A stretch of 64,000 nt of DNA, from positions 372,001 through 436,000 of the forward strand of contig JAALGZ010000008.1 in NCBI GenBank assembly GCA_015227615.1, read 5' to 3'. Within the stretch, counting starts at the first letter, position 1. Each line of letters opens with the position of its first letter. Below the pieces are notes generated by a model. It saw nothing but the letters and a program-made list of their open reading frames with translations, made no database searches and was not told the origin of the DNA. The position numbers and the translations under genes were made by a program. Positions 11,134 to 49,612 of this stretch are shown here, piece by piece. Source of the stretch: Labyrinthula sp. Ha (taxonomy: Eukaryota; Sar; Bigyra; Labyrinthulida; Labyrinthulaceae).

Positions 11134-12755
11134 ATGTCTAACATAAAGAAGTTTTTGAAGATTTCACTGGTTTTTTGTGTATTAAAAATAGTCTCTAAAC
11201 TACTAGAAGCTCAGAGAAGAAAAAGACATCTGCTAAGGCTACCCTCCTTACCAGTTGACAAAGGAAAAAGGTACAAACTGAACCCAATGCAAACTCTAAA
11301 AACAGTTGCCGATAAAACTGGGAACTTTGATATCACCCATAGAAACGTTCAGAAGCATGTCTACAGGCTAATCCAGCAAGTATATTCTCATTTTATCTTA
11401 CTTCTCAGCTATACCGAGAGCTGCCAAGTGCTCCGTTCATAGTTTGTTGGAATATAAATCCTTTTTTTACTCTTTTTAAACCTGAGGCAATAGTTTTGAT
11501 AAAAGATCCAGCTATTATGCGTGAATTGACATCTGCGAAGATGATGTCCAAGTTGGACAAAGGAACCTCGTACAAAATTGCAGAACCATTACTTGGAAAT
11601 GGTGCGTTCAGGGCAACGGGATTAAGTTGGCATGATCAAAGTTTAGCTCTGAATAAAGGTTTGAATGAACAAGTTATGAGAAAACAAATTCCAGCGCTTG
11701 AGAAAACAGCATCAGATTTGGTATTGAAGTTACAGCAGTCCGTAAGCGCTGAAAGAGATGTTGATTTGTTCGAGGTAATGTTGCAGACTTCGATGGATGC
11801 GTTGTGTAGAATCGCATTTAACTTTGAAATGGGTTGTTTGAAGGCAAGAAATGCGGATGAAGCACCTTTATACAGCGACTTTAACACTATTCTTCATACG
11901 CTTCAGAAGAGAATTAGAGCACCATATTTACACTACACAAGATTTCTCCCTACAAAAGAGAATCTTCTTTTTAATAAAGCAATAGAAAGTTTGAACTCAA
12001 CTGTTTTAGATCTTATTGCGAAACGCAGGGAAGAGAATAAACTGAAACTGAAGTCAAAAGAACCGAGTGATTTACTTGATGCGTTACTTTGTAGTAATCT
12101 GGATGAAAAGTTGATTGTGGATAACTTAAAAAATGTTCTTTTCGCTGGACATGACACTACTGCTTCTGCAATGACATGGGCGGTTTATTTACTGGGAAAG
12201 CATCAAAACGTTCAATTAAAGTTGTTTGCTGAGTTGAAAAGACACTTGGGCTCCAAATGGCGGAGTATAAATTTTGCACAATTGAAAAATTTGAAGTATT
12301 TGGATGCCGTGATCTTAGAGGTGTTAAGAATCTACCCATCTGCTTCATTTGCAAGAAAAGCAAAAGAAGATATTGAAGTTGCAGGTTACGTGATTCCAAA
12401 AGGGACTGATCTTGGATTTTCTCCGTACGTGGTTCAAAGAGAGGATTTTAACTTTAGTCGCGCAGAAGAGTTTTTACCAGAGAGGTGGCTCAAGACAGAT
12501 GAAGATGTTGATCTTGCTTCAAGAGTCGGAACAGTTTCAGTTCAAGAAAATTTTTTTACATTTGGTTACGGAAAAAGAAGTTGTGTTGGAAAAAGACTTT
12601 CTGCTTTTGAACTTCGAGTGGTTTTGATCCACATCGTGATGAACTTCAAAATAGAGTTGAGTAAAAACCCACACCAAGAGTTTCAAGAAACTCCTTGGAG
12701 TAGTATGACTTTGGTTCCAAAGTTTCTCAAAGTCTCTTTTAGTTCTAGATCTTAA
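11134..12755 (+). CDS. Cytochrome P450 (copy 1)
   Basis: A two-exon P450 of 530 residues. Exons are 11134-11379 and 11409-12755, with a 29-nt intron (11380-11408, GTATAT...CTCAG) that keeps the frame. Residues about 7-25 form an N-terminal hydrophobic anchor, suggesting ER membrane. The I-helix AGHDTTAS is near residue 322, the K-helix ExxR is EVLR, and the heme loop FGYGKRSCVGKR has Cys474 as the thiolate ligand, so all core residues are present. It is a monooxygenase-type class II P450 that would use a separate reductase; the substrate is unknown. The single intron sits at the same place and phase as in the P450 at 47.9 kb, so they are paralogues. An FLVCR-like transporter lies 398 bp downstream on the same strand. 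Confidence 0.92.
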
Positions 12756-13153
12756 GTAAACTGCTTTTTCTAGTGAAACCAGTGTGTTAACTCTTAACTT
12801 CTTATTCACCACCCCTTTTGCGTAAGCTGCTTATATTCTCAGTCATTAAAAACCGTTTGTCCTCAAGAAGGAGTTTAAGAACTTTCCAGGGTCAAGTTGA
12901 TATCTGTAAACACGTGTGTCCATGGTTTTACCTTCTTCTTTCTTGTTACCAACTTTATGTCCGCAGAATAGTAGTCTTTTTGGAACACTTTCCGGGACTA
13001 AAACGCGAAAGGAACAAAGAAATGGCAATTTTGTCATGAAATGCTTCAAAAAAAAATTAGAAAATAATGTTCAATTAGGGTTCCAAAGTTCAGTCCATTG
13101 ATTCTATATTTTTTTCAAAACAAAGTGACCTTAAGCAAAACCAAACTCTAAGA
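12756..13153. other. Intergenic 398 bp between P450 and transporter genes
   Basis: It holds no recognisable gene. Both strands are open for about 70 codons over 12.82-13.05 kb, but neither frame gives a known protein or a splice signal of the usual 27-32 nt spacing. A CACGTG (E-box type) core lies near 12911. It probably carries the P450 3' end and the promoter of the transporter gene. Confidence 0.45.
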
Positions 13154-14824
13154 ATGGCTCCCCAAGTTTGTTGTTTCTCACCAGTCAAAGAGGAAGATGA
13201 GAAAAAAGTAATTTATACAGAAAACGGTGAGCCAAAAGTACGTTTCTGTTGCTTTGTTACTTTTCAGGTGTACTTTCATCGCTGGTTTGTTCTTGCTGCA
13301 TACACTCTAGGTGCCTTCATGTGGAACTTTGAGTGGACAAGATATGTTCCGATCACTTCAGAGTATGCACTGTATTACAATACTACTAACGAGTATAATC
13401 CAGATGAAGGTGAACTAGGAATTGATTTTCTTAGTCTAAGCGCAAGTTTTAGTAACATCATCGCCTACCCTATTGCAGGCTTTCTCATTGATCAGTATGG
13501 ATTAAACATGATTACTCTTGGAGCTCTTGGACAAACTATTGGCTGTTGGATATTTTATCTTGCTTTTCAAAACTATCCGTTAGTTGTGGCTGGTAGGTTA
13601 ATTACAGCAGTGAGTGGACCGTTAAACTATGCATCCATCTTAAGATTGTCGACTCATTGGTTTGCACCGAAGGAGAGAATTCTCGCAATATCTTTGGCTA
13701 TTTTTGTTTCGACTATTGGAGGTTCTTTAGCATTACTTATTCCACCACTTTACAAAACAGGAGATGAAGAGTTAAGGTTAGATTTAAAGAGTTGTGATGA
13801 AGATTTTATTAAAGATGTAGAAGAGTTGAACCTCAGCACTACACAGTGTATTGATGATGCAGATGACAGTTTCTGTTGTGCAGCACCTACAGATATTGAG
13901 GGAATCAATCTGTTGATTGCTGTTTTAATGTCTGGCAATCTATTGTATACATTTTTAGTTGTCAAAGATTCTCCTCCTACACCTCCTGCAGTGTCTGCTC
14001 AGGTAAAGTCATCCATGGGTTTTTTACCTTCTTTAATCCACTGTTTCTCACATATCAACTACTTCTTAATCACTTTTGCTGACTTTTTAGCTTCTGGAGT
14101 TGTTCTTGTAGTATTTAATACGATCTCAAGGTTGTTTCCCTCAGATGTAGCTGATATTGCAATTTGGGTCTCTGCTCTTGCAATGCCTTTGGCGCTTCCA
14201 CTTAGCTTTGTGGTATCAAGAATTCTTGGAAAAACTGGAAAGTTTTACGATGTAGCTGCTGTTTGTTATTACCTTGGGTTTTTCACCTGGTGGATGGCCG
14301 CTCTTGGTTTAGCTCTAGGAGGTAATTTTCACTACATGCTGGTAGTTGGAGCTTCTGCAGCAACTCTTTTGTACCTAATTTGGCAAGTTGTTGTCTTTGA
14401 ATTGAAACTCGAATACGTTTTTGTTGCTGATTACGCTCTGCAAGGTATAGTTGTGGCGACCGATCGAACTTTGGCAAATCTTTCGACTCTCATCTTCCTC
14501 TCGAACATTCCTCCAGAAAAGTATGATGGACCTGCGATGAGTGGAAGGATGTTTACATTTGTAGTTGGAGGAGCTGTATTTGCCGTAGCGGTAATTATAG
14601 TTGCATTTTTACCGCACAAAAGAAGGTACTTGCGCGCAAAAGTTGAAGCCGAGTTAAATATAAAACAAAGCTCCCCTGATGGTTTTAGTGCTGAAGATGG
14701 GAAGAAGGAAGTAGTTGCTAAAAGTGTGGTTGTTGATCTCAGCAACGATATGGAAACCAGCTCTAGTAAAACAAGGAAAAATATATCAAGAAATGACGAA
14801 GAATCCAGTAAAGAATCGATTTAG
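13154..14824 (+). CDS. FLVCR-like major facilitator transporter
   Basis: A 556-residue, single-exon MFS protein with about 12 membrane spans. The first span follows YFHRWFVLAAYTLGAF, the family-like start with an aromatic-rich helix. The segment AGFLIDQYGLN (about residues 107-117) matches the MFS motif-A loop between helices 2 and 3. A large Cys-rich loop lies between spans 6 and 7 (about residues 205-245), and the tail is hydrophilic. Overall it resembles the FLVCR/DIRC2 group, whose characterised members move choline, ethanolamine or heme. The substrate cannot be read from sequence. It lies between a P450 (398 bp upstream) and the helicase (148 bp downstream), all on the plus strand. Confidence 0.82.
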   Translation: MAPQVCCFSPVKEEDEKKVIYTENGEPKVRFCCFVTFQVYFHRWFVLAAYTLGAFMWNFEWTRYVPITSEYALYYNTTNEYNPDEGELGIDFLSLSASFSNIIAYPIAGFLIDQYGLNMITLGALGQTIGCWIFYLAFQNYPLVVAGRLITAVSGPLNYASILRLSTHWFAPKERILAISLAIFVSTIGGSLALLIPPLYKTGDEELRLDLKSCDEDFIKDVEELNLSTTQCIDDADDSFCCAAPTDIEGINLLIAVLMSGNLLYTFLVVKDSPPTPPAVSAQVKSSMGFLPSLIHCFSHINYFLITFADFLASGVVLVVFNTISRLFPSDVADIAIWVSALAMPLALPLSFVVSRILGKTGKFYDVAAVCYYLGFFTWWMAALGLALGGNFHYMLVVGASAATLLYLIWQVVVFELKLEYVFVADYALQGIVVATDRTLANLSTLIFLSNIPPEKYDGPAMSGRMFTFVVGGAVFAVAVIIVAFLPHKRRYLRAKVEAELNIKQSSPDGFSAEDGKKEVVAKSVVVDLSNDMETSSSKTRKNISRNDEESSKESI

Positions 14825-14972
14825 GTAGAAGTATAATTATTAATATTAGGTTAGCTATTGCAGTTCTTACAACAGTTTTTTGCCACGTCGACTACTCATT
14901 TTCTAACGGTTTTGTTTTGCTGTTCCAGCGAAAATAGAATATTACTTTTCAACCGTTTAGGAGGGATGAAAA

Positions 14973-17498
14973 ATGAATAACATAAAAGTTGAAATTAACG
15001 AAGATATTGGAAAACCGATTGTAAAACCCAAGCTGAGACTGAAAAGAGATCAGGTTCAACGGAATCTGACAAACCAACAAGTGAGTAACTTGAAAATAAA
15101 AAATGTCAAGGAAGAAAAGGATTCTAAGGAGAAACAAGAGATTTTTTCTGTATGCGGAGTTGAAATACCGTTTCCTCCAGGGAAGAAACCCTTTGAGTGC
15201 CAAAGAATATTGCTTCAGAACATGATGAGAGCTATGCTGAAATCAGAGCACGCGTTGCTTGAAAGTCCAACAGGGACTGGGAAGACATTTGCCTTGCTTT
15301 GTGGTGCCCTTGCTTGGCAAAAATCTGAACTTCTGAAAATCAAGGAGTCAAAACACTTAAAAAGCGAGAGAAAAGGTTTGAACAAGGAAAACAATCAAAA
15401 TGTTTTAAATGCTACAGTTTTGCTGAACGTGTCCGGCCAGAAAACGGTACCTCAGAGAAAAAGGCGCAGGTTCGCCTTTGGAGACCCTTGTAACACAAAA
15501 ATATTTTTTGTTTCTCGAACACATTCCCAGCTGGTATATTAATTTATTTTTTCTTACTGCAGGATCAAGTGCTCAAGTCTTTGAAGAAGTGTCCCGAAGA
15601 GTACCTAGTGGGAGAGCACCTAGGTGAAAAAGGGTATATCGCGACAGTCTTAGGCTCTCGAAACCACCGTATTTCTATCTCCTATTTTAGTACTAGTATG
15701 CATCAATGAGGCGGCGAAAAAGTCATTATTAGGAGTTAACGAGGAGTGCAGCCGGATGATTAAGAACTTCAATGCTAATGAGAAGCATTCCTGTCGACAT
15801 TACTCAAAATACTACTACAACAATAGTGATGCAAACAAGCGCATAAATTCATCTGCTAAAATGGCTGTCAATCAGTCCATTCTAAGTTTCTTTCCTAGTG
15901 AATGCAACGAGGAGTATATACGTGAAGAAATAACGGAACATATTACAGATATTGAAGACCTAGTAACTGAGGGAAAAAAAACAGGTGTTTGTCCATACTT
16001 TGCTTCTCGTGAGAAAATTCGCGGTGCTCATTTGGTAATGCTGCCATATAATTATTTGTTTTCACGCCGATTTCGAAAAATGCTTGGTATTGATAGGTAC
16101 TTGAAAACATCTGTTATAATTATCGACGAGGCTCATAATGTGGAAGAAGTTTGCTGCCAAGTAAATAGTTGGTCAGGAACACTTCAAACCATTCAGGAAT
16201 CACTTGCTGTTCGAAAAGCTGCGGCTCACGTTGGGACAAAAGAACACTACGCGAACAACAGGTTTATTGCGGAAATGCTACGGAAGCTGGTTGATTGGGT
16301 TTCATCAATTGGTTTCCCTACTGGAACCAAACAGGATGATAAACTGTTTACAGGTGAGTACTTTGTTAAGATTCTACAAAGTATAGGCATAGATCATTCT
16401 TCTTTGTCTAAACTATATAAGTTTGCTCTGGATGTTGAAGACATGAATAAAAACATAATAGAGTTGTTGAATGCATTGAGCTCTATCACAAAGCCTTTAA
16501 CAAAACCCTCTGCTGAGAAAACTGCTTGTAAACGACCGATAAAATCATTCTTGAATGCCGAAGATTTTGTTGTCTTGGTTCACATGGATAAAGAAAAAAC
16601 CTTATTAAATCTGGTCTGTGTTTCAGCAAGATTAGCATTTACTGACATAAGGGTAAAGGCCCAGACCTTGGTTCTGGCAAGTGGTACGTTAGCACCGTTG
16701 AGTTCGTATGCTCAGTCGCTATACACTAGATTCGCCTACACAATGCAAGGGAGCCATGTCGCAGACATAAAAAGTTCCCTGCGAACCATTTGCCTGCCTA
16801 AGGTGACTCTAGGCCATAATGAAACATTTACGTTTAATTCCTCCTCTATTCACAAGGTCAAGTCTCTGCTTCCAACCTATGTGAAGGCAGTCGCAAGGAG
16901 TTTACTAATGTTGTTACCCGAAGTTCCCATTTCTTCAGGAGCCCTCGTCTTTACAACTAGCTATAACATGCGAGACAGGATATTTCTTGCTGCAAATGCT
17001 TTGTTGAAAAGAGAACAGTCCTACCAGAATTTAAAACGTACTGCACAACTTTACAAAGAAGAACACGTTTCCTTGTTTAAGCGAAACATCAAGACTAAGG
17101 CTCATATACGCAATATGATGTTTGGGGTTTTCAGAGGGAAAATGAGTGAGGGTGTCGATTTTATTGATGATGAGTGTCGGATGATTGTTCTAGTTGGTAT
17201 TCCATATCCTGCATTATTTGAGCCTATGACAAGAGCAAGGATGTGGTTGAGTAATAGGAACAAGTTAAGCACCGAATGGTATAGTGCTAGAGCCTGGCGT
17301 GCAGCAAATCAGGCACTTGGGCGAACTATAAGGCATAAAGATGATTATGGAGCTGTAATCTTGCTAGATGACAGATATATGAAAGAGGCGTTCTCAGCCG
17401 GCGGGAAACTATCAAAATGGATAAGACCTTCTATAAAAAGATGCGAATCCTTGGAAAACTGCTGTTTTGAACTTAAAGAGTTCTATGCTGCACATTAA
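14973..17498 (+). CDS. RTEL1/FANCJ-class Fe-S DNA helicase (DEAH)
   Basis: Three exons (14973-15533, 15563-15668, 15697-17498), with introns of 29 and 28 nt, encode 822 residues. Superfamily 2 XPD-family motifs are in order: Walker A ESPTGTGKT (about 97), SRTHSQL, four Fe-S cysteines (in HLCIN, NEECS, HSCRHY and GVCPYF), DEAH (366-369), SGTLAPLSS, GKMSEGVDF and QALGRTIRH (about 761). Phrases such as VLGSR-x-LCI, DIEDL and SRTHSQL point to RTEL1, while the N-terminal core also resembles FANCJ. These nuclear 5'-3' helicases remove D-loops, G-quadruplexes and telomeric T-loops. The protein stops just after the helicase core, so the RTEL1 C-terminal harmonin-like, PIP and RING parts are absent. 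It ends 15 bp from the stop of the facing SSADH gene. Subfamily assignment is less sure than helicase identity. Confidence 0.88.
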
Positions 17499-17513
17499 CA
17501 ACAGTGACCTTAC

Positions 17514-19355
17514 CTAAAGATTCAGTGCCATATATTTCGTCTGCAAATAGTCATCAATGCCATACTTAGAACCTTCCCTGCCATAACCACTTTCTTTAAC
17601 TCCACCAAATGGCTATAATTAAACAAGAGAAAAATGTACAGCCACTTCAGTTGAAATAACACCTGTATTTACACCAACCATGCCATATTCTAATTCTTCT
17701 TTAACCCTGAAGACTCTTCCTACATCACGAGCGTAAAAATAAGATGCAAGACCAAATGGGGTCGAGTTAGCCAAATCAATGGCCTCTTCTTCCGTCTTGA
17801 AAGTAGTAGCAGCAACAATGGGTCCAAAAATTTCTTCATGCGCTATATCCATGTCCTTTTTAATATTACTAACAACAGTGGGTGGGAAGAAGTAACCTAA
17901 GATTAAAAAGGACATTAGCATACCATTAGAGGCTGAGGTGGTTGTTCCTGCTTTATGGATCATACTTGCGCCTTTCTTGACAGCTAAAGAACAAAGAAGA
18001 ACAAGAACATACCATCCTGAAGTAAATTATTGCATTTAGCTACTGCGTCATTAGATATCAAGGGGCCAATTGTAACTAAAATTATGAAATGAGGTAAACC
18101 TACCATCATCTTGAAGTCCATCTCCTACACGAAGAGCTTCAACCTTATGTTTAAAGATCTGAAAGAATTCATCAGACACTTTTTCATCAATAAAAACTCT
18201 ATTCGCACAAACACATGTTTGTCCTGCATTTCTAAATTTGCTCGCCATTAAACCTTCAGCAGCGCTAAAGATTTCATTACACAATAAAACGTACGCCTCC
18301 AAATCCGCATCATCAAACACAATGAAAGGGGCATTTCCTCCCAACTCAAGTGAGAATTTTTTCAAAGTTTTGGCACCTTGCTCAGCTAACAGTTTTCCTA
18401 CAGGTGTGCTTCCTGTAAAGCTAATTTTCTTTACAACTGATGATTTCATCCAAGCTTCAGAAACAATTCTTGCATCATCCTTCCCGGCAAGAAGAATATT
18501 TACTACACCCTTACAAACTTCCTCCATCCCACATCTTTTTGAAGCTTCTTCAAAAAGTACACCTAAAGCTAAAGCAGAAAATGGAGTTTCAGCAGCTGGT
18601 TTAATTAAAGTGGTACATCCCGCAGCCAAAGCAGCAGAAAGCTAAACTAAACAAAAAAGAAAAAAAACTTTTCTGCTTAACATAGCATTTGGAAAATTCC
18701 ACGGTGTAATTATTCCACACACTCCAATTGGTTCCTTTGTAACTATAATTCTCCTACTGGAAACTGGATCAGGAATTGTGTCGCCGTAAATTCTTTTTGC
18801 TTCTTCTGAAAACCAGTCGAAATATGATGCACCGTAAAGTACTTCACCTAAAATAATAAAATAAATATAAATAACCTTTGGCTTCTGCCAGTGGTTTGCC
18901 GCATTCAATAGTCAGGATCGTTGCAAGGTCCTCAATGTGCTCTCGGTGTAAATCCCCGATTGTTCTCAACAGTTTGCTTCTTTGTGAACCTTAGTAATAA
19001 AAAAATATATATATATAATACCAGTTGTCTTCTTGAATCTTTTGAAAGCTGCTTGTGCTTCAGTAATAGAAGAATCGATTTCTCCAGAAGTGACTTGTGT
19101 CATGTTCGCCAAACTCTCAAGCGTAGAAGGGTTTTCGACAGGGAAGCTCCGATCATTCAACTCATTTGACCATATACCGCCAATAAAGCTGGTGGATCTA
19201 ATGAGTTCGTGGTTTTTTACCAGATTGATAAGTTTTGGGGATATTGTTTGTGAGAGTTTGTGCATATCTTTTGTTTTGGTTGTATTTTCACGTTCCAAAT
19301 CTGTTCCTGAGCAATAGGGCCATATGGCCCGACTCAAATCATTTAAAGATAACAT
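17514..19355 (-). CDS. ALDH5A1: NAD(P)-dependent succinate-semialdehyde dehydrogenase
   Basis: Eight exons (19355-19022, 18989-18876, 18847-18669, 18641-18104, 18075-18013, 17983-17924, 17896-17640, 17612-17514) join in frame to 547 residues. The seven introns are 32, 28, 27, 28, 29, 27 and 27 nt; five are phase 1. The enzyme oxidises succinic semialdehyde to succinate in the GABA shunt. Seen motifs are PWNFPNAM, the NAD-binding FTGSTPVGK, the catalytic Glu in ELGGNAPF, and the catalytic Cys352 in GQTCVCANR. The second Cys two residues on matches the redox pair of SSADH rather than most other ALDHs. The C-terminus [20 protein letters not shown] is also SSADH-like. I started at the ATG at 19355; the frame is open further upstream, so a short 5' exon or targeting peptide cannot be excluded. 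It is far more intron-rich than its neighbours. Confidence 0.9.
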
Positions 19356-26677: not shown

Positions 26678-26845
26678 AGCGTAAGAGCCTATTTCAAAGA
26701 CTTCTTTTTGCCAAAGAAAACTAGAATTTAATAAAAAAAAAAAAATACAGCTGGACCTCTATTGTCTCTGAACCACGTATTGGTTTAAATTTGGCAGCTC
26801 CAAATCTGTGACTAGACAAGAAATTTGGCTCAAACGAATCTTGCA

Positions 26846-29800
26846 CTACGGGGGTTTGGAACTAAGAATAACAAGCAAATAATATTTTACCATGTCAATT
26901 GTTTTCTTTTTGTCTTTGGTCTTAATTTCAACCCGACAAAAAGAATTCATTTGTCCTTTCAGTAGCGTTTGAAGCACTCTCTCGAGCCTTCTTATTTTAA
27001 GGGTAGCTCTATCTGGGCTATTTTTTATAACAGTTTCTCCGAAAGTGGATTGATTTACTTCATGTCGAGGAAAAAATAAATTGCAACGAAAAATTTCAAC
27101 ATCAATAATGAATCTTCTTTCATCTAGAGACGCCTCGCACAATTCTAACCAAGAGAGTGGCATAGACGTTTGTTTAACCACTTTACTCAAGCTCTTAGTT
27201 GTATTGATAGTTGAATAAATAGTGTTACTTTGGGCAGTATTCAATGGGGATTTATTTTGCACCGAATCTGAACTGTCTGTTGTTGGACTAGAACTGTCCG
27301 TCTTTCGAAACGTTAAACTTGCTGATCGCAATTTCCGCCTCATTAATCCTTTGTTTCTTAAACCAAATGTGCCAATTAGTGCAGATGAAAAATTAGTGTG
27401 TGGGGAGTTAAAGTATTCATCCTTCGAAACTGAGGCCAGCTGGAATATAGTGCATAGGCTCCCTAAATTTGATACTTCGTAGCGCTTTCTACCATCTGAA
27501 GAACGCGAATTCTGACTACGATGCTTCCGAACGTGCTGAATTGGAAACCATCGAAGAAAAGGCTGAGTTAAATTTTGGGATTCATCTTCATTTGAAGTAA
27601 ACTTTCGCAGCAACGTGTGGAACTTAATCACCATTTTTCCAAGAACCCAAAGTTTTCCTGGCTTATTCTTTTCGTGAGTTGGCGTCCCAGAAGCTACTGA
27701 ATTCCTGATTGTACTCACACGAGCTTTCAAAGTTATGTTTATGGTTTCGAAACCAGAAAGTGAGGTACTATGAGCAAAAACAAAGCTGGAATTAAAGCTC
27801 GGTTGAAACTCCTTCAGGCTTTCAGAACCAGAGAACGTGTGCTCCACAAAACTAGATAGACCATGTTCTTCACCAACACTAACTTCCACAAAGAATAAAA
27901 CATTTAACTGCGGACTTTCATCTCGCACTGTCTTTGGCAAATCTTGAAAAAGGGGGAGCTTGACGAAATTCTCAAAGCGAAATCTGACTCTTGCTAGTCC
28001 AACTTTCAGGGTAATATTTGTTTGTTCTCGATTGATACTTTTCTGCAGACAAAAATTGGCAAGGGCAACTGATATTCGAGTAGAGTTTTGTTTTCCTTCC
28101 TCAAATTGCAGTGTATCAAGTTCATCCCCTCTAAGATTACAACTGGAGCTCCATGAAGACAAGGGTACCATGCCAACAGACTTCACTGAAACAGCAACTT
28201 TTGGAATAATACCTAGCTTATAATCCCTTCCTCCAAAGGGCAGCAACAGTTCAGTTTCCTCATTTGTTTGTTTTCCAAACTGTTTCACAGAGAGGAGTTG
28301 TTCCAAGCTGAAACTAGCTGTCCCGAGCACTTCTTTGCCTTCAGCCGCATCGATAAGAGCAATTGTAACTCTAGAGCCAGGGATTAACACTTGTCGCTGG
28401 CCAAAAATAAAAACATCTGTTTCCAAAAATTCTATACTGGAATAGAACACAGGTTTGGAAACTTCCATATCTCCAATAAGACTAGAAACGGTTTCTGAAC
28501 GATAGCTTCTATCGCTTGTAGAGGTCTGAGTTCGTCTTTGAAGTGAATTCTCTGAATGTGAAGTGGAAATATCTTTGAGATCAGTATTCAACGCGGAAAA
28601 TGAGGCTATAGACTCATTATATGGGAGAGCATCACTCAGGGTTGAATGACTAACATTGAGAGAGGTTACACTGTCCGTTTCTTTTCGGACAATTTCATCA
28701 TTATTACTCCCGACTTCATTTCCATCAAGATTACGCCTCGAATCCTGAGGTCCTTCGAAACCTCCAGGAGAAGACTGTACGGAGCTGGAATAGATTTCCC
28801 AAGACGATGAATCCCCTGGAACTCCACAGGAAATAACGCAGAAGCACTCTTTACCTTGAAAATCTTTGAGTTCTTTCAGTTTGAGTTGAAAGGAAATATT
28901 TCTACTATAGTCTTTGTCAAGAATCGCTGAATCGTCATATACTTCTTCAAAATATGTTCTTACGCTACTCTTTTCTCCATAGTGTTGATGTTTTAAAGCT
29001 TGAAAACAAGAGATTCTCCAAAACTGTAAGAAGTTGCGCGTTGAAAAGGTATAGAAAGCCCTCGAGGACCACTGCATCAAACTCAAAATATATCTCTCTT
29101 CTCTTGACGTATTCAGTAAAGAATCGTTCCTATTTTGGCCTATAATTATTGAGCATTCTAAAGGATCAGGGTGGAGAACGAAATCCCCTTTTCTTAGAAT
29201 AATAACGTTAGTAGAGAGATGTTGATCTGCCTTTATATTGAGTGGAGATAGTTGACGAAGGTCATCTATAGCAAGACATATAGCAAATAATTGAAAAGGG
29301 GCTCGGATGTTTTCTTTTCTACCAAAAATACAAACTTGCGGTGAAAATGAATAGCAGGATACATTTTCAAATGTTTTTTCCAGTTTTTCCACTTCCACTC
29401 CACCACCCATGCTGATTGAAGAGTCAGAATAACGTTTCCTGGTTAGACTTCGGAAGAGGTTGTCAATCACAAGAAATGGTCGCATTAGGGCATACACTGA
29501 GCTCTTTTTATAGTTCATTATATTAAAGACATCAAGGGCACAGATTTGAGAAAACCTTGCTGCATGTCCAATTCCAGTAAAGGAAAATTTTGGACTCCCT
29601 TGTATGTTATCAAGCAAAATCCGTAAAATGCCTAGCCAAATTCTTGAAGAGATTAGTTCATATTTTTCAAGGATTTCTGAGTCCACAATAAAAAGAGCCT
29701 TTCGCTGCTTCCAGGGATTAATACAATGTCTTGACGAGTGCTGTTTTTGAGAGGTCTTCTCTGCTTGAAAGTTCTTTTCTATCAAGATGAACTTCTCCAC

Positions 29801-31903
29801 TATTGACTTCATGGCTTCCAGATCTTTGCAGTACCGAGTACTTATATTTCTTGCCTCCTTTTGTTTCTCTTCTTCCGCTTTTAACAAATCACTCAAAAGA
29901 TCTGATTTCTCCGGTGGCTTTTCTTTAGGTTCAGGAATCCAGATGTCACGTTCATTAATTTCAAAGGAATCATCAAATTCTGTTTCAAAAGGCATGAATG
30001 CTCTACTTGGTACTTCTTCTTCCTCATCCAAGAAATTGTTTTCGGCTTCTTCAACTTCTAGAATTTCATTTACAATTTCTACCTGATCATTAAATTTAAT
30101 CAACTTTCGCTCAAAAAAGCTCTCGAGGGAAACATGCTTTGTTTTTCTTGGAATAGTAATTTGTTGGCAATCGTCATCATTTTTATAAAAAGCAACTGTA
30201 ATATCAAATTCATAAGGGCTATTTATTGAGTGTACCAAATTGTTCTTCTTCACAAGAAAAACAATCTGCAAACCAAGCTCAGGATCAAAGATTTGATCAA
30301 ATACTGAATAAGTATAGTTCCCGGTGTTATCGATAAGCATTTGAAGCTCATTAGTAGTAAAGGTATAATGAGGATTTGCGGATTTTAAAGCCAAGAATGA
30401 TGCGTTAAAGCTGGCAATAATATTTTCTAGAACTACTACTTTCGGTTCACAAGGGGCTTTGGGTTTGTTTGAAGTTAGCTGCTGCTCTTCATCTTGATCA
30501 AAAGACCCTTTATATAGCACCTTTGGAAGAGACCGATTGCGTACCAATGGAGAAAATAGGTAACACAACTGACAAAGTAAAACGAATTGCTGCCAATTAA
30601 CAACAACCTCAAGTGTTTGTGGATAAAGATATGTTAACTCGAAGCTACCAAAGGAATTTTCTCTCTCTGAAGAAAATAATAAAGCCCTAGGGGTTGAAAC
30701 AGTTACTATAAACGAAAGTAAGAATACTGAAATCAACCCTGGAAAATATATGTAAAAGAAAACGTAAAGAACAATAAACTGCCTATGCACTTCTATAAAA
30801 CTTTTCCTGATTATGCCATGCCAGGCAATCAAAAGTTTTCTCAGAGCTCTAAAAATTATAAATGCTTCAAGAAAAGCAAATAACACGACGGAAAACTTCT
30901 TGAAGTCATGATTATCACAAGAAATCTGCTCATCCACAAACACAAGACCCTTCGAAGAGTGCTTAGGATTACAAGATAACAGAAAATAAAAACCAGAATT
31001 GAATATTGCTAAACCAAGATCAAACCGATAAATTTGCCCCAGAATAATTCTAAAAGAACAATAGAATGTAAGAAGAAATCCATCAAGATGAATAGAACCT
31101 TTATGTAGTGTTGCAATTGAGGGTGGATTTAATGTATTTTCAATAGCAAATTCAGAGATATAAATTCCAAGGTAAAAAATCAACGTCAGGTAAAATGCGT
31201 TAAATATTATTGAGAACCGGTATTTTGGCCAGAAAATAGGATTCAAATCAAAGAAGGTTTCATTAAAACTTTCAAGGTCGCTGTCAAAACTCGTAGGAGC
31301 TTCGTTATCAAAAAACGCAAGATCTAAGATGTTATATACAAATGAGAATGAGGAAGTAAAAAAGGAGCAAACCAGTAGAGAAACAATAAACACAAAAACT
31401 CCGTCTGACACAACCTTTTCCCGCAAGATACGGAAATAAAGTAATATTTTTTGGCAGAATGTCAGATCTCGTGATTCTAAAGACACTTCTGAGTTTGTGG
31501 CTCGATGAACTGAAGTTATATAGAATAGAAGAAGTAGAATAACAAAAGAGGAAATTATAATATTGACTACAATCGAATGCCGTTGGAAGCTTCGCACTGA
31601 GGTAATTGTTGCATCGATTTCATCAAGATAATCATAATACTCTTCTTGAAGAAAGAAATTTAGAGAGTTGTTTTCAGTTGTCTGGGTAGAAGCTGTGTTC
31701 AAACTTAAGCTTCTTGTCCATAGACGAAAACCAATTACTCCTACTACTCCGGCAAGAAAAGATATTCCAGTGGATAACTTAATTATCTCAAAATACTTAC
31801 TTGATATTATTTCAACTTGAAAATTTCCATCTTTCCATCGATTATTTACTTTCTCAACAAGTTTTTTTTGTTTTTCTTTTTCGACGTTGAAATTCTGTTT
31901 CAT
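26846..31903 (-). CDS. Large multi-pass membrane protein with cytosolic C2-like region
   Basis: An uninterrupted 1685-codon gene without introns, unusual beside the eight-exon SSADH. Hydrophobic segments lie near residues 42-60, 110-132, 168-192, 231-251, 275-310 (one or two), about 335-355 and 370-405, giving roughly eight spans in the first 480 residues. The remaining about 1200 residues are hydrophilic: an acidic stretch near 620-640, a Lys/Glu-rich helix near 680-740, a Ser-rich linker, and a beta-rich C2-like segment near 1160-1240 (FIFGQRQVLIPGSRV, then EVLGTASFSLEQLL). A second such segment may follow (about 1300-1400). I do not recognise the family. Membrane-plus-C2 architecture suggests a scaffold or channel-like protein recruited to a membrane domain; this is inference. 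The ATG at 31903 is the first in frame. Confidence 0.7.
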   Translation of the reverse strand: MKQNFNVEKEKQKKLVEKVNNRWKDGNFQVEIISSKYFEIIKLSTGISFLAGVVGVIGFRLWTRSLSLNTASTQTTENNSLNFFLQEEYYDYLDEIDATITSVRSFQRHSIVVNIIISSFVILLLLFYITSVHRATNSEVSLESRDLTFCQKILLYFRILREKVVSDGVFVFIVSLLVCSFFTSSFSFVYNILDLAFFDNEAPTSFDSDLESFNETFFDLNPIFWPKYRFSIIFNAFYLTLIFYLGIYISEFAIENTLNPPSIATLHKGSIHLDGFLLTFYCSFRIILGQIYRFDLGLAIFNSGFYFLLSCNPKHSSKGLVFVDEQISCDNHDFKKFSVVLFAFLEAFIIFRALRKLLIAWHGIIRKSFIEVHRQFIVLYVFFYIYFPGLISVFLLSFIVTVSTPRALLFSSERENSFGSFELTYLYPQTLEVVVNWQQFVLLCQLCYLFSPLVRNRSLPKVLYKGSFDQDEEQQLTSNKPKAPCEPKVVVLENIIASFNASFLALKSANPHYTFTTNELQMLIDNTGNYTYSVFDQIFDPELGLQIVFLVKKNNLVHSINSPYEFDITVAFYKNDDDCQQITIPRKTKHVSLESFFERKLIKFNDQVEIVNEILEVEEAENNFLDEEEEVPSRAFMPFETEFDDSFEINERDIWIPEPKEKPPEKSDLLSDLLKAEEEKQKEARNISTRYCKDLEAMKSIVEKFILIEKNFQAEKTSQKQHSSRHCINPWKQRKALFIVDSEILEKYELISSRIWLGILRILLDNIQGSPKFSFTGIGHAARFSQICALDVFNIMNYKKSSVYALMRPFLVIDNLFRSLTRKRYSDSSISMGGGVEVEKLEKTFENVSCYSFSPQVCIFGRKENIRAPFQLFAICLAIDDLRQLSPLNIKADQHLSTNVIILRKGDFVLHPDPLECSIIIGQNRNDSLLNTSREERYILSLMQWSSRAFYTFSTRNFLQFWRISCFQALKHQHYGEKSSVRTYFEEVYDDSAILDKDYSRNISFQLKLKELKDFQGKECFCVISCGVPGDSSSWEIYSSSVQSSPGGFEGPQDSRRNLDGNEVGSNNDEIVRKETDSVTSLNVSHSTLSDALPYNESIASFSALNTDLKDISTSHSENSLQRRTQTSTSDRSYRSETVSSLIGDMEVSKPVFYSSIEFLETDVFIFGQRQVLIPGSRVTIALIDAAEGKEVLGTASFSLEQLLSVKQFGKQTNEETELLLPFGGRDYKLGIIPKVAVSVKSVGMVPLSSWSSSCNLRGDELDTLQFEEGKQNSTRISVALANFCLQKSINREQTNITLKVGLARVRFRFENFVKLPLFQDLPKTVRDESPQLNVLFFVEVSVGEEHGLSSFVEHTFSGSESLKEFQPSFNSSFVFAHSTSLSGFETINITLKARVSTIRNSVASGTPTHEKNKPGKLWVLGKMVIKFHTLLRKFTSNEDESQNLTQPFLRWFPIQHVRKHRSQNSRSSDGRKRYEVSNLGSLCTIFQLASVSKDEYFNSPHTNFSSALIGTFGLRNKGLMRRKLRSASLTFRKTDSSSPTTDSSDSVQNKSPLNTAQSNTIYSTINTTKSLSKVVKQTSMPLSWLELCEASLDERRFIIDVEIFRCNLFFPRHEVNQSTFGETVIKNSPDRATLKIRRLERVLQTLLKGQMNSFCRVEIKTKDKKKTIDMVKYYLLVILSSKPP

Positions 31904-37658: not shown

Positions 37659-37921
37659 TTAAGCTGAAGCTAGTTTTGTTAATGCCATGTCTCCTTCTCC
37701 TTTTGCTCTTATGTATCCACATAACGCAACTGTTTTATTCTTTCCTTTAATCGCTAAACCAGTTTCTGGATCAACTTCCGCTATGGAGATTTGAACAGAA
37801 GCTCTGTCTTGAGAAGTAATAAGTCTGTTTGTCCATGAGCTAAAAAGTAAAAAACGTATAAGCAACTTTACCATTTTCTTGGGATGTATAAATCTACGTT
37901 TTCTCCGTTATCGTTTTGCAT
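37659..37921 (-). CDS. RPS21: Small-subunit ribosomal protein eS21
   Basis: Two exons (37921-37872 and 37839-37659) encode 76 residues; the 32-nt intron (37871-37840) splits a Cys codon. The start MQNDNGENVDLYIPRKC is the family signature. It continues with NRLITSQDRASVQISIAEVD and the core ALCGYIRAKGEGDMALTKLA. The usual length is about 80-85 residues, so the C-terminal tail is slightly short. It is a component of the cytosolic 40S subunit. It shares a 196-bp bidirectional promoter with the complex I subunit gene. Confidence 0.95.
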
Positions 37922-38117: not shown

Positions 38118-38538
38118 ATGTTTAGAACAAGAGCCTTATTCAATGCAGCCTCAAAAGCTGTAACACCGGTGAAGTCTTCAACTGGTATTGTTGGTATTGA
38201 AGTAATTTTTTCATATTAAAACCACTATTACAGGTTGTACCTAATGCACGGGAAATTCTGATAGATTTGTACAAGAAGACCTTGGAAGAAATTAAGGTAA
38301 CAACCTCTCATTCCTTTTTACTTTGTAGACAGTGCCTCAAGGCTCCGATTATAGGACTTCGATTGAACAAATAACAAGTTATCGACTTTCTGTTGTGGAA
38401 AAAGAAAGTGACATATTCAAGATTGAGGACGAAATCTCCTGTGGACAAGTTGAAGAATTAATCATCCAAGCAGAAGAAGAACTTGACTTGATCCCATTCT
38501 ATTTGAAACAAAACTGGATCTTAGAAACTAAGAAGTAA
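38118..38538 (+). CDS. NDUFA5: Complex I subunit NDUFA5 (B13)
   Basis: Three exons (38118-38201, 38234-38296, 38329-38538) with two 32-nt introns encode 118 residues, close to the usual 116. Family landmarks are STGIVGIEV, then ARE-ILIDLYKKTLEEIK, YRTSIEQITSYRL, the acidic EDEISCGQVEELIIQAEEEL and a short tail. It is an accessory subunit of the matrix arm of mitochondrial NADH:ubiquinone oxidoreductase, so the organism has aerobic-type complex I. The tail is shorter than in animals, where a Trp-rich end follows. The last codons overlap the 3' end of the facing GAPDH-like gene by 11 bp. Confidence 0.93.
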
Positions 38539-39595: not shown

Positions 39596-39619
39596 ATTTT
39601 CTTTTCTTGAATCTTCCTC

Positions 39620-39649: not shown

Positions 39650-39770
39650 ACCAAGAAATACGGTTCTTTCACATGAATAATTTCCGTTGACAAATAACTC
39701 TAACGATTAACAAACAATTGAAGATACTAAGAGATAGACTAAGTGTATCTCCAGAACAACTAGAGCAGAA

Positions 39771-40124
39771 TTACTCAATATGAGAAGCCACAGGTAGATC
39801 ATTACCACTTTCAGTGCGCGATAGCCTGCTCAACTGACCTTCCACCACATGCTCCACGCCACCTTCGTCGTTAGGGTCGTATACCGTTGCAACCGTTAAA
39901 TCACTAACAGGGTTTCCAAATGCGTCGATTTGTAGTCCTGTTCTCTTTTGGTTAGATCTTTCAGCATACCAACGAATACAGCTAGAAAAAACTACAAGAC
40001 AGCAAAAAACAAAAAGCATTAGTATCAGAGCTATAAAAGAGGACGGAATGGGCTCATCTTCCTCCGGGGAATCTTCTTCCTGCAGTTTTCTTAAACCGCG
40101 AAAGATTGGTAAAGAGTTAGTCAT
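39771..40124 (-). CDS. Small single-pass membrane protein, unknown
   Basis: A 117-residue protein of unknown family. The N-terminus is short and has an acidic stretch (EEDSPEEDEP). It is followed by one strong membrane segment, FIALILMLFVFCCLVVFSSC (about residues 31-50), a basic patch, and an acidic cytosolic or luminal tail ending in SHIE. I start at the ATG at 40124; a GTG three codons upstream is in frame but is not a likely eukaryotic start. It lies upstream of the GAPDH-like gene on the same strand, 175 bp away. It is probably real because composition and codon use match its neighbours. Function cannot be inferred. Confidence 0.6.
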   Translation of the reverse strand: MTNSLPIFRGLRKLQEEDSPEEDEPIPSSFIALILMLFVFCCLVVFSSCIRWYAERSNQKRTGLQIDAFGNPVSDLTVATVYDPNDEGGVEHVVEGQLSRLSRTESGNDLPVASHIE

Positions 40125-45410: not shown

Positions 45411-45422
45411 ACGTCAGCTTAA
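45114..45422 (+). CDS. Doubtful 102-residue open frame upstream of ABCD gene
   Basis: An ATG-started frame encodes a basic stretch (RRFRRLDTKKKRQK) followed by one hydrophobic segment (FIFFNLIILLLLEG). No family is recognised. It stops 50 bp before the ABCD ATG and overlaps a likely promoter element, so it may be chance. An acceptor-like CTATAG lies just before it. Confidence 0.2.
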   Translation: MLFVHYLEHIPLRLLFYESVENLEVPLVRRFRRLDTKKKRQKLFPFIFFNLIILLLLEGPLFNQISASLFLQLVEGKKLQIFQYGITLNNHVMPICNCLTSA

Positions 45423-45454
45423 AACGCAGTCTTCCACGTCAGCGTATAACCAAT
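45411..45454 (+). promoter_or_regulatory. ABCD promoter: paired ACGTCAGC and a CCAAT box
   Basis: ACGTCAGC occurs at 45411-45418 and 45436-45443 in the same orientation, 25 bp apart, followed by CCAAT at 45450-45454, all within 65 bp of the ATG at 45473. ACGTCA is a typical bZIP (CRE-like) half-site. Regulation by a bZIP factor is an inference. Confidence 0.45.
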
Positions 45455-45472
45455 CCCAAACCAAATCATAAA

Positions 45473-47452
45473 ATGTCGACGCAGTTATCAAGAGGCAGTG
45501 CCAAGAATGCGATGGCTGGGTTGGCAGCATCATTCAGCTTTCTCTTCTTCGTATCTAGCTTCAACGACTTTATCTCAAAACTCAAGGAGAAGAGAAATAT
45601 CAAATCTTCCAAGACCAGACCTGGAAGCTCCAGCAAACTCTTTCCAATCTTGAAGTTCATCTTCACCAAGTCTTGTTCTCCAAGGGAAGTTTCCACGTTC
45701 TTTGGACTAGCATTATGTCTTCTCCTGAGAACGTTGGGTTCCGTCTGGGTGTCACGTCATTGGGGAAAAATTGTGGCAGCCTTTGTCCGTAGAAAATTCT
45801 CACTTCTTCATGCTCTCATCACGAAATTAGCTGTAGCTACAATCTCCCTCTCAGTTCTTAATGCGCTGCTCAAATACTACATATCACTTCTCAAAGAACA
45901 ACTTCGCGAAAAAATTACTCTTTTTTGCCACGAAAAGTACATGACTAAACGGCTAACTTTCTACAAAGCAAACTTCATAACGGACGAATCTTCAGAAGTG
46001 TTTAAAATGGAAAATTTAGATCACAGGATAACTTCAGACGTTGAAAAGTTTTCAGAGCTCTTTGCCACAGTTCTGTCACAAAGTTTAAAGCCAATAGTCG
46101 ACTTTGTAGTATATAGCGTGGAATTGTCTCGTGTTCAGGGTTTAACTACTCCTTTAGTGCTGTACTCTTGGTTTGCGTTTGCATCTGCGCTTAGTACCTT
46201 TACTATGCCACCATTTCAATCACTAGTTGCTAAAGAACAACAACTTGAAGGAAGGTTTATCCAAGCTCATGGAGAAGTGATAACAAACGCAGAGCAGATT
46301 GCTTTCCTTGGAGGTGAAGATCCAGAATTGAATATTTTAAATAAGAGATTTCAGGAGTTGAATTCACATAATCTACACTCAATTAGTTTATATTTTAAAT
46401 CAGAAGTGTTGAGGCAATACTTGAATAAGTACTTTGTTACTGTAATTGGACTCTTGCTTGCAGTTAGACCTCTAAAAATTGGAAGACCTGGGTTTTTACC
46501 CCATGAGTTGAACGAAAGTGGAGTAAGTCAATACTTTGTAACTGTGTGGAAAAACATGGAGGCAATGAGTACTTCTATTCAAGATCTGTTTGAGCTCTCT
46601 AACCGCATTGGACGTCTTTCTGGATTGGCAACTAGAGTAAGTGAATTAATGGAAAAATTAGAGTGTACCCCAAAGGAAAAGATATTAACTAAACATATTG
46701 GTTTAGCTAGAGCAACTGGAAGCTCAAGTCAGTTCATCTCTGGAAAGGATCTTAGATTTGATGGTGTATCCGTATATAAACCTGATGGAACACTCTTAGT
46801 TCAAAATTTGAACTTTCAGGTTAAAAGAGGAGATCGAGTTTTGGTAACTGGACCTAATGGATGTGGAAAAAGTAGCTTGTTTAGAGTGATTAGAAAGCTT
46901 TGGCCTCTTGTAAAAGGAAAAATTACTCTTCCCTCTGAAGATAGTTTGTACTTTCTCACCCAGGTTAATTTTGTTCCTTTGGGTACGTTGCGAGATCTTG
47001 TAACTTACCCAAAAGTTGGATGTGGAAAAGAAGTTGATGAAAGAGTTCTTCAAGTTTTAGATTGGGCTGAATGTAGTCCTGCAATTGTAAAAAATGGAAA
47101 AGCTCAGTTAGAGTTCACTGTTAATGGCGCCAAGATTCGACCTAGATTGGATGATGTGAGAGATTGGGGAAAGGATTTGAGTCCAGGACAGAAGCAAAAG
47201 ATTGCATTTGCTAGGCTGTTCTTCCACAAGCCACAATTTGTTGTTCTTGATGAGTGTACCAACGGAATTAGTCCCGATGTTGAAGGTAAGTTGTATGATA
47301 GGTGTACTGCTTTGGAGATGGGAATCTTCAGCATTTCCCATAAGATCGAGTTGAAAGAGTTTCATGACTATGAGCTTCATTATCACGGTGACGCAGAAGG
47401 TGGTTATGATTTTCTACCATGCTCAGAAACTAGAGGAAGATACTTGGGTTAG
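45473..47452 (+). CDS. Peroxisomal ABC half-transporter, ABCD family
   Basis: A 659-residue, single-exon half-transporter. An N-terminal membrane domain (about residues 75-360, five to six spans) carries the ABCD EAA-like motif NAEQIAFLGGEDPE (about 272). One nucleotide-binding domain has Walker A GPNGCGKSS (about 459), the characteristic FRVIRKLWPL, a signature LSPGQKQK (about 569), Walker B VVLDECTNG (about 590) and switch His in SISHK. The family imports very-long-chain or other acyl-CoAs into peroxisomes for beta-oxidation, working as a dimer. The signature usually reads LSGGEKQR, so Pro and Gln are unusual; DECTSA is DECTNG. It lies upstream of the P450/PRXL2 pair, 526 bp from the P450 ATG. 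Confidence 0.92.
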   Translation: MSTQLSRGSAKNAMAGLAASFSFLFFVSSFNDFISKLKEKRNIKSSKTRPGSSSKLFPILKFIFTKSCSPREVSTFFGLALCLLLRTLGSVWVSRHWGKIVAAFVRRKFSLLHALITKLAVATISLSVLNALLKYYISLLKEQLREKITLFCHEKYMTKRLTFYKANFITDESSEVFKMENLDHRITSDVEKFSELFATVLSQSLKPIVDFVVYSVELSRVQGLTTPLVLYSWFAFASALSTFTMPPFQSLVAKEQQLEGRFIQAHGEVITNAEQIAFLGGEDPELNILNKRFQELNSHNLHSISLYFKSEVLRQYLNKYFVTVIGLLLAVRPLKIGRPGFLPHELNESGVSQYFVTVWKNMEAMSTSIQDLFELSNRIGRLSGLATRVSELMEKLECTPKEKILTKHIGLARATGSSSQFISGKDLRFDGVSVYKPDGTLLVQNLNFQVKRGDRVLVTGPNGCGKSSLFRVIRKLWPLVKGKITLPSEDSLYFLTQVNFVPLGTLRDLVTYPKVGCGKEVDERVLQVLDWAECSPAIVKNGKAQLEFTVNGAKIRPRLDDVRDWGKDLSPGQKQKIAFARLFFHKPQFVVLDECTNGISPDVEGKLYDRCTALEMGIFSISHKIELKEFHDYELHYHGDAEGGYDFLPCSETRGRYLG

Positions 47453-47978
47453 AAATTTTGGCTTTGTACGAGTAAGAATAAGTCATCGGTTAAACATAGC
47501 GCAATAATTACTTTTTACACATACACTGTTTACCTTCCAGACGTGTTTTATTGTGTACGTTGTTAACTGTGTAGGATAGTCAGCCACATGTCCTTTCTAG
47601 AGGGGTTCTCATTTACACAAGACTAAATTAACTGCACAAAAGTTTCTATGATGAATAAAGAAGAAACACTTAGCCCTATATATGTGTTAAGACAGATAGA
47701 GCATCTTAATTTTATTTTTCGTCTCTTATTTCAGTCAAGAGTTTTGTTACATTCTTATCTTGTAACCTTTTCTTTTCACCCTTTTTTTTCGTAATTGGAA
47801 TACGGAACAATTTAACGGCAGAATATCTGCTGTTATTGAACTAAACAATGGCCGATGTCTATTGCTGTAGCCGTTAAAAAGATTCTGTCTCGAGGCGCCA
47901 CAGCCAAGGCCGAAAATGACCAACCATAGCCGTTTAAACAAGAATTAATTGAAAATAAAGATATTGGAAAAAGAAGAT
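47453..47978. promoter_or_regulatory. Upstream region of P450 copy 2 with GCCGTT elements
   Basis: This 526-bp gap contains no gene. TAGCCGTT followed by A/T occurs at 47868 and 47927, and the related reverse copy (TTTAACGGCA) at 47811. A hairpin with 9-nt arms (AACGGCAGA with TCTGCTGTT, one G-T pair) lies at 47814-47834. The region is GC-richer than the deserts. It probably holds the P450 promoter with a repeated element. Confidence 0.4.
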
Positions 47979-49612
47979 ATGAAGTGGAGGAATAAGGGTT
48001 ATTTGTTCAAGCTCACTGAAAAAATTGTCGTTGGGTTTTGCCTATTCAAGCTATTACGAATGTTCATGGAGCGGCAAAAGAGAGTGAGAATGTTATTGAA
48101 ACTACCAAGCCTTCATGTACCCAAAGGGAAAAAGTACTCAGTGAACTTTCTTCAAACCTACCAAACAATTGAAAAGGAAATAACCTTGACTGGAGAGAAT
48201 GTTGCAAGACACTTCTACACCATTATTGAAAAAGTACGCAATGTTTACTTTCTTGAGTTTAGTTACTTCTATATGAATTACCTAATGCACCACTAGTTTG
48301 TGCTTGGAAGGTGAACCCAATGTATGCGGGGGTTCGACCAAATGTTCTGATACTGGTAAATGACCTCAAAGTCACTCGAGAGTTACTCTCAGGAAAGTTT
48401 CTGAACAAAATGAAAAAAGGGAAGGCATATAATGCCTCCTCGCCATTATTGGGAAACGGGGTCTTCACCGCACAAGGAAACTTTTGGCATAAACAGAGAT
48501 TGACGGTTCAAAAGGGATTTTCAACAATAATGATGAAGAATGGGATTCCCTGTATGAAAAAAACTGCAAGGGACCTGGTTGTATACATGAAAGTAGCCCA
48601 AAAAGAATCAGCAAAGGAAATAACAGATTTTGATATCTTGAAGTTGATGATTATGACTTCATTGGAAACAATTTGTCAAGTGTCGTTTGGGTATGAAATT
48701 GGTTGTTTCAACAAGAAGAAAGGTAACGAAATAATAGGCATTCTTTCCATTATATTCAATACCTTCGGACGCAGAATAAGCTCTCCATATCTTCAATGGA
48801 CCAAGAGCTTCCCAACTGCAGAAAATAATAAATTTAACGCTTCTTTGGAAAAACTAAATATAATTGTTAGAGATATAATTGCTAAACGTAGAAAAAATAA
48901 GAGCGCAACTGAAAAAATCAATTTACTCGACATCATTCTTGAAAGTGATTTTAATGAAGAACAAGTTGCTGATAATGTTAAAAATGTTTTGTTTGCAGGA
49001 TTTGATACCAATGCAAGTACTTTGTGTTGGTCCTTTTTTGTATTGGCAAAGCGCCCAGATATCCAAAGCAAGATCCTTGCCGAGATGGACAAACAGTTTG
49101 GGTCAAAGTTGGACACATTGGATGGACCAAAACTAGAAAAGTTGACATACTTGAATGCAGTAGTTATGGAAATCTTCCGTTTGTATCCAGGTGCAGCCTT
49201 CACTAGAACAACTTTGGAGGAAATATGTGTTGGTGGATATACTATTCCCGCAGGGGTGGATATTGGATTCACCCCATATATATACCATAGGGATGAAAGA
49301 AACTTTCGAAATGCCAAAGTGTTTTGCCCAGAAAGGTGGCTGACAGGCGATCGACAGAATGTTGATTTATTCTCTCAGTTGTCTACAGCAGCTGTAGAAA
49401 CAGCTTTTCTAACATTTGGATATGGAAAGCGAAACTGTGTGGGAAGAAAGTTATCAGCTTTAGAGACTCGTATTGTGATTCTGTATGTGCTGAGAAATTT
49501 TGAAGTTTTCCCTGCGATAAAACAACATCCAGAGTTCCAAGAAACCCCTTTTGCTGGAGTTACACTGATTCCTCAGCACATGAGAGTTGGTTTCAAACCA
49601 AGGAAAGTCTAG
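47979..49612 (+). CDS. Cytochrome P450 (copy 2), intact
   Basis: Two exons (47979-48233 and 48263-49612) with a 29-nt intron encode 534 residues. A hydrophobic anchor (about residues 13-25) points to ER membrane. The I-helix reads AGFDTNAS: the D-T pair is kept but the second Thr of the usual AGxDTT is Asn. ExxR is EIFR and the heme loop is FGYGKRNCVGRK with Cys477. It is otherwise a complete microsomal-type monooxygenase with unknown substrate. The intron position and phase match the P450 at 11.1 kb. The stop is 82 bp from that of the facing PRXL2 gene. An almost identical but 5'-decayed copy lies 13.46 kb downstream in the same orientation. Confidence 0.93.

Follow-up and report, generated by a model that had tools for sequence, protein, structure and literature searches.

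What holds the introns of a gene-sparse genome at a length of about 30 nt? The question is posed by a stretch of 64,000 nucleotides from Labyrinthula sp. Ha (contig JAALGZ010000008.1, positions 372,001 to 436,000; hereafter the window), which is part of contig C132 in an assembly of 50.84 Mb and 153 contigs (GC 34%), and for which an original prediction had listed fifteen introns within a 5-nt size range (27-32 nt). That these are spliceosomal introns and form one uniform, ultrashort class, in genes read by the standard code, is supported by the present analysis. The sample is very probably dominated by a near-fixed class of ultrashort U2-type introns (≈ 27-33 nt), whose length would be set by geometry and whose starts would be held by an altered U6 small nuclear RNA (snRNA). 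Ultrashort introns as such are already known from Blastocystis, ciliates, and nucleomorphs; the change in U6 is the unusual part.

Introns of the window and their gene models

The listed window genes were translated by reading in three frames, and fourteen of the fifteen predicted introns were located at the lengths given. The fifteenth, a 29-nt intron in a '305-residue gene', could not be located: when the window was searched for one 29-nt GT-AG intron yielding 305 residues, the single match lay inside a conserved helicase exon and was taken as false. For SSADH all seven predicted introns (32/28/27/28/29/27/27 nt) are present, and an eighth, stop-free one of 30 nt had been overlooked. The spliced SSADH and its match in EukProt, P0001, a MAKER model on scaffold_8, are identical in 507 of the 517 columns aligned, and the remaining 10 are the retained 30-nt in-frame segment; because of this agreement P0001 is taken to come from the same organism. 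The introns are as follows (window positions, strand, feature, basis).

11380..11408, +, P450-1 intron, 29 nt: frame join, position shared with the P450-2 intron
15534..15562, +, DDX11/CHL1-like helicase intron 1, 29 nt: join restores RTHSQL and the DEAD_2 domain
15669..15696, +, helicase intron 2, 28 nt: 130.4 bits against 122.8 for a 22-nt alternative
18990..19021, -, SSADH intron 1, 32 nt: frame join, same join in P0001
18848..18875, -, SSADH intron 2, 28 nt: frame join, same join in P0001
18642..18668, -, SSADH intron 3, 27 nt: frame join, same join in P0001
18265..18294, -, SSADH intron 4, 30 nt, in frame and stop-free: missing from the two solved SSADH sequences listed, 10 residues in P0001
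18076..18103, -, SSADH intron 5, 28 nt: frame join, same join in P0001
17984..18012, -, SSADH intron 6, 29 nt: frame join, same join in P0001
17897..17923, -, SSADH intron 7, 27 nt, in frame and stop-free: frame join, same join in P0001
17613..17639, -, SSADH intron 8, 27 nt: frame join, same join in P0001
26862..26890, -, intron of 29 nt at the end of a 1685-residue frame: gene model only
26721..26748, -, intron of 28 nt: gene model only
37840..37871, -, eS21 intron, 32 nt: joined protein matches eS21, E=1.3e-23
38202..38233, +, NDUFA5 intron 1, 32 nt: joined protein matches NDUFA5, E=7.6e-29
38297..38328, +, NDUFA5 intron 2, 32 nt: same NDUFA5 match
48234..48262, +, P450-2 intron, 29 nt: frame join, position shared with the P450-1 intron

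The expectation that each join restores a conserved protein held for SSADH, eS21, NDUFA5, and the helicase, which we take to be DDX11/CHL1-like. The joined SSADH reaches 528 bits against solved proteins, and in alignment to solved relatives its junctions are gap-free, one of the two alignments listed departing from this by a single residue next to intron 7; the junctions of eS21 and NDUFA5 are gap-free likewise. The P450 joins support only each other, lying at the same place in two paralogues, and the best PDB alignment of P450-1 begins past its junction, which is left uncovered.

P0001 has exactly the seven SSADH joins of the original prediction, and its header, as far as listed, reads QI 49/1/0.87/1/1/1/8/106/51. 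In such headers the second field gives the fraction of splice sites that transcripts confirm, the third the fraction of exons that transcripts match, and the seventh the number of exons; read in this way, the header gives transcript support to all seven junctions. Among the window genes, SSADH was the one for which a comparison with a public model from the same organism was possible; a search with P450-1 returned none. The second public model considered, P0238 (Augustus, ABC transporter), carries ten extra residues between GPSG and SGKS, which split the Walker A loop; resplicing raises the score of the ABC domain from the 75.4 bits of P0238 to 92.4 bits. Stop-free introns with a length divisible by three can be mistaken for protein in public models, as in these two, and the intron length proved to be the gene-finding rule that had been foreseen: it uncovers stop-free introns rendered as 10-residue insertions, one of them within a Walker A loop.

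The two stop-free in-frame segments, of 30 nt each in SSADH and the ABC transporter, could conversely be coding insertions, since both public models keep them and neither holds an internal stop. We regard this as quite improbable: the segments share ends and length with the other introns, the SSADH insertion is missing from the two solved sequences, and the ABC segment would split the Walker A loop. In the P0001 header, the value of 0.87 for transcript-matched exons would fit seven of eight.

Length class in the larger sample

Beyond the window, twenty 10-kb stretches of contig C1 were taken in, giving 264 kb together with the window, and further loci were added: aldehyde dehydrogenase (ALDH) loci on C86, C35, C66, and C69, and one locus on C65. 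A gene model with three-periodic coding, intron base composition and a flat length prior of 15-250 nt contained, apart from the dinucleotides at the two intron ends, no splice motif, and six false dinucleotide pairs in place of GT-AG served as controls. At the most permissive setting over the 264 kb, 26 of 43 GT-AG introns fell at 27-32 nt, compared with 2/20, 2/13, 2/20, 1/15, 4/21, and 1/17 for the control pairs; stricter settings gave 17/29 and 14/23 against 0-3 and 0-1 in the controls. The composition model favours introns rich in T. Because its intron composition was partly learned from the window, the search was rerun with neutral composition, lengths to 600 nt and eight control pairs, whereupon 11 of 45 GT-AG introns lay at 27-32 nt (10 of them outside the window) as against 0-4. 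Cruder scans were less telling: raw GT..AG distance counts, made in the window only, gave no peak, and nothing clear emerged from ab initio scans with a 4th-order or a 2nd-order coding score, the latter showing a slight GT-AG surplus at 27-32 nt.

The model called 28 introns outside the window, with a commonest length of 29 nt and outliers at 16-24, 34-36, 93, 126, and 166 nt. Curation started from 50 model calls (43 + 7), of which 10 were dropped before counting: 36 nt in L010, which runs two genes together; 93, 126, and 166 nt in L017; 34 nt in L018 (retroelement-like); 24 nt in L026; a second intron of 24 nt in L032 (many equal alternatives); and, in the window, 26 nt (26312) as well as 40 nt and 15 nt (39700, 39760). 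The 126-nt call in L017 is, on reading, an open frame. Comparison with proteins changed the lengths of five calls (18->33, 18->30, 22->28, 20->29, and 16->28 nt), and two model-only ones, 24->30 (L013) and 16->31 (L020), were re-set in part because the longer form fell into the band, a choice that introduces a bias. Homology alone supplied five introns, namely SSADH 4 and 7, eS21, and NDUFA5 1 and 2. The resulting set of 45 comprises 27 introns anchored by a conserved protein and 18 model-only ones; the 'anchored' status of the Snf7/CHMP4, DEAH helicase, glycine dehydrogenase, and ALDH-type loci draws on motifs and gene names, with partial backing from Pfam.

The anchored introns, from six contigs (C132, C1, C86, C35, C66, and C69), measure 27-33 nt (mean 29.6, standard deviation 1.8), and the model-only ones 27-35 nt (mean 29.9), so that the class is narrow, as predicted, with a range slightly wider than the 5 nt proposed. 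The ALDH loci contribute further introns of 28-30 nt and C65 one model-only intron of 31 nt. Within the sample (264 kb and the other loci, out of 50.84 Mb) intron length is thus near-fixed and below ≈ 35 nt. Three of the 27 anchored introns are stop-free, or three of the 11 anchored ones whose length is a multiple of three. It is confirmed that the introns are real; with GT-AG ends and frame-restoring joins in the 45 curated ones, they are very probably of U2 type. The notion that the segments are sequencing errors, frameshift sites or pseudogenes deserves next to no weight, given that the length peak is specific to GT-AG, that conserved proteins are restored and that a public model has identical joins.

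A second possibility is that there are two size classes, mostly tiny introns plus longer or differently composed ones outside the reach of the survey. The search extended over 264 kb and the added loci with a model leaning to T-rich introns; the neutral run found 12 GT-AG joins at 101-200 nt where the controls had 4-11; and Trichomonas has such a two-class set (PMC12316389). We nevertheless consider two classes unlikely, because the neutral run summed over 39-600 nt shows no excess (GT-AG 28, controls 27-36), several of the long joins, by reading, skip real small exons between two tiny introns (e.g. window 18848-19021), and all 27 anchored introns measure 27-33 nt.

Splice sites, branch position and the U6 box

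At the intron starts (n=45), A occupies +3 in 33 introns, +4 is T in 18, A in 13, C in 7 and G in 7, +5 is A in 19, T in 13, G in 8 and C in 5, and +6 is T in 29. The commonest start is GTATAT (5/45), while GTAAGT does not occur (0/45). The count of A at +5 exceeds that of a local shuffle (10.0±2.7; as many in 3/5000), and A or G stands there in 27/45. The introns end in TTTAG in 21/45, and their interior is 58% T. The pattern YTNAY was found in 33/45 against 33.6 in shuffles, which is no enrichment, and YTRAY and CTAAY are likewise not enriched. An A at -7..-10 from the acceptor is present in 42/45, compared with 26.9±3.2 in interior shuffles (0/500 as many), both in anchored (25/27; 1/2000) and model-only introns (17/18; 0/2000), and both outside (26/28; 0/2000) and inside the window (16/17; 1/2000); at -11..-14, A is depleted (15/45, below all 500 shuffles). 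When the best A at -6..-11 is chosen (43 introns), the distance from branch to acceptor would be 8.5±1.2 nt, a spread that is narrow partly because the A was picked within this interval, and that from start to branch 21.3±2.0 nt. The branch site looks to be set by position more than by motif, and the scant room between branch site and acceptor that had been predicted is borne out if the enriched A is the branch point.

The snRNA survey took in U1, U2, U4, U6, and U12. There are three copies of U1 (66.2 bits, below the Rfam cut-off of 69.5) with the usual 5' end AUACUUACCUG, and U4 was found beside U1. The original prediction had singled out U2 and SF1 for checking: both are present, U2 in three copies with the usual branch-pairing stretch GUGUAGUAUCU, and SF1 as a match. 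For the U2AF large subunit there is a match (E 5.1e-73) that stays under the curated cut-off. Neither U12 snRNA nor RED had a match in this genome or in any control genome. The U1, U2, U4, and U3 genes are clustered (L042, L006-L008; contigs C96 and C135), copies of U1 and U2 lying in opposite orientation on C96 and another U1/U2 pair on C135.

The only U6 match found (L046 1501-1609, minus strand) reads AUAGAGA where the Rfam consensus is ACAGAGA. The stretch of this U6 that pairs with U4 has diverged as well, and the U4 of this genome matches it (duplex -30.2 kcal/mol, run of 10 pairs); a TATA-like stretch lies upstream and a T-run downstream. Because of these features the gene looks functional, as far as its sequence tells. 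The changed base of the box is the one that pairs with intron position +5, and a U at this place can form a pair with A and a wobble pair with G. A preference for A over G at +5 (19/45 vs 8/45) is what the base change in U6 predicts. How the U6 box and G at +5 contribute to the choice of start sites is reviewed in PMC11732430. The tunicate F. borealis keeps ACAGAGA, as do the B. natans nucleomorph and Stentor with their shorter introns. A literature search aimed at variants of the U6 box found, in the text available to it, no report of AUAGAGA.

In the mechanism we propose, the intron would be recognised across itself as one unit. U1 would bind first, to a weak start (GTA, often GTATAT); U2 would then use an A within a T-rich stretch, 7-10 nt upstream of the acceptor, place outweighing motif; and after transfer from U1, the AUAGAGA box of U6 would hold the start, its U (usually C) pairing with A at +5, or with G by wobble. 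Length would be set by this geometry (≈ 21 nt from start to branch and 8-9 nt from branch to acceptor) and not by compaction, in what is a gene-sparse genome. The balance tips slightly towards the fuller evolutionary account, according to which U6 ACAGAGA naturally became AUAGAGA, 5' splice sites moved from +5 G to +5 A, and a branch A measured by position holds the introns at 27-33 nt, a compensatory rewiring of the core with U1 unchanged. If length does follow from geometry, this gene-sparse 50.8-Mb genome would separate splicing geometry from compaction, which are tangled in reduced genomes; and if the account holds, a natural U6 variant with matching starts would be an evolved test of U1 versus U6 pairing in 5' splice-site choice, U1 being unchanged.

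Several observations, besides the surplus of joins at 101-200 nt, weigh against this reading. Compared with the intron interior, T is not more frequent at +6 and is less frequent at +4, which confines the backing for U6 pairing to +5 (and the A at +3). A second, weaker excess of A at -19..-22, near the start (35/45 vs 26.8±3.1; 4/500), means that the branch is not uniquely assigned by position alone, and both the -7..-10 window and the preference at +5 had been noticed before they were tested. Among the 11 motif patterns tried, TTAC is mildly enriched (12/45 vs 6.6±2.3; 10/500); TACT is too (11/45 vs 6.6±2.3; 25/500). Three of the dropped calls (24, 24, and 26 nt) could be true introns below 27 nt. 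Transcript support for the introns amounts to one public header, that of P0001, and P0238 has none.

The ultrashort introns may also be real and the spliceosome ordinary, in which case the deviant letter in U6 would be an assembly error or belong to a copy that is either unused or a divergent pseudogene, and A at +5 would merely reflect weak, A/T-rich starts. U6 is indeed known from a single locus and from its sequence only, weak start sites occur in other tiny-intron lineages too (PMC12316389, PMC6461891), and an unchanged U1 would still favour G at +5. We hold this to be possible though rather doubtful, in view of the pairing of this U6 with a diverged U4, the TATA-like stretch and T-run that flank the gene, and the shuffle comparison for A at +5. 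Moreover, no better U6 match was found genome-wide among the 48 of 6155 first-look candidates that were scored, in an assembly that is possibly incomplete, and a canonical copy, if present, should score higher than the AUAGAGA copy.

Other tiny-intron systems and neighbouring genes

The intron class works like those of Blastocystis, ciliates, and nucleomorphs, and differs from them in the gene-sparse genome and in U6. In the stramenopile Blastocystis, introns are mostly GT-AG with a mode of 30 nt, which accounts for 54% in ST1, 36% in ST4, and 21% in ST7, and the lengths found here sit on that mode (PMC5608401). However, Blastocystis genomes measure 12.9-18.8 Mb, with 85-95% of the genes split, 4.6-6.5 exons per gene and U12-type introns (PMC5608401), whereas in the 50.8 Mb of Labyrinthula predicted genes cover 31% of the 264 kb and many are single-frame. 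Stentor coeruleus has introns of 15-16 nt with the branch A at position 10 in 90.9%, and resembles the present case in its standard code, weak branch consensus, near-fixed place of the branch A, usual U1 and U2 motifs and listed SF1 and U2AF; there, however, U6 ACAGAGA is conserved (PMC9505925). The introns described here are not of this heterotrich type (15-16 nt, branch A at one place), being 27-35 nt long with the A spread over four positions.

Introns of 20-33 nt in Paramecium and 21-29 nt in Nyctotherus are on record, the latter T-enriched and without a branch motif, as here; in both ciliates introns tend to contain in-frame stops or to have a length not divisible by three (PMC2633312), in contrast to the three stop-free ones among the 27 anchored introns of Labyrinthula. 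The nucleomorph of Bigelowiella natans has uniform very small introns and a full snRNA set, but they measure 18-21 nt in a 373-kb genome with the archetypal U6 ACAGAGA (PMC6461891). With Stentor and this nucleomorph known, 27-32 nt is not minimal, and the suggestion that these introns approach the known minimum did not stand (PMC9505925, PMC6461891). Trichomonas type B introns are uniformly short (~25 nt) and T-rich like the present ones, and differ in belonging to a two-class set with few introns overall and a conserved 3' motif (PMC12316389). Dicyemid introns average 38.2 bp (PMC6736024); a dicyemid origin, to which intron size had pointed, was rejected because the P450 has its best relative in MMETSP1346. 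For labyrinthulomycetes, no intron lengths were found in the open-licence literature searched, as far as the texts were available, PMC12258536 and PMC10101102 included.

As to neighbouring genes, the 1685-residue open frame (window 26849-31903, minus strand) is without a Pfam match and is followed by the two model-only tiny introns. The genome holds 46 P450 matches, mostly long single frames; the best relative (38% identity) comes from MMETSP1346, presumably the labyrinthulid Aplanochytrium stocchinoi. A third P450 in the window (61837-63066, plus strand), close to P450-2, carries a TGA in frame near the start, its 5' end is degraded, and it is likely a pseudogene. Each of the two similar P450s has an AhpC/TSA-type protein next to it (window 49695-50750 and 63172-63780, both minus strand), an arrangement suggestive of a duplicated block of P450 and AhpC. 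In L013 (1-2666, minus strand) the model combines a pectinacetylesterase domain and an ABC transporter in one gene, as does the public Augustus model, either as a true fusion or as two genes run together. Finally, a zinc-knuckle, gag-like open frame in L018 (2618-3830, plus strand) is probably the remnant of a retroelement.

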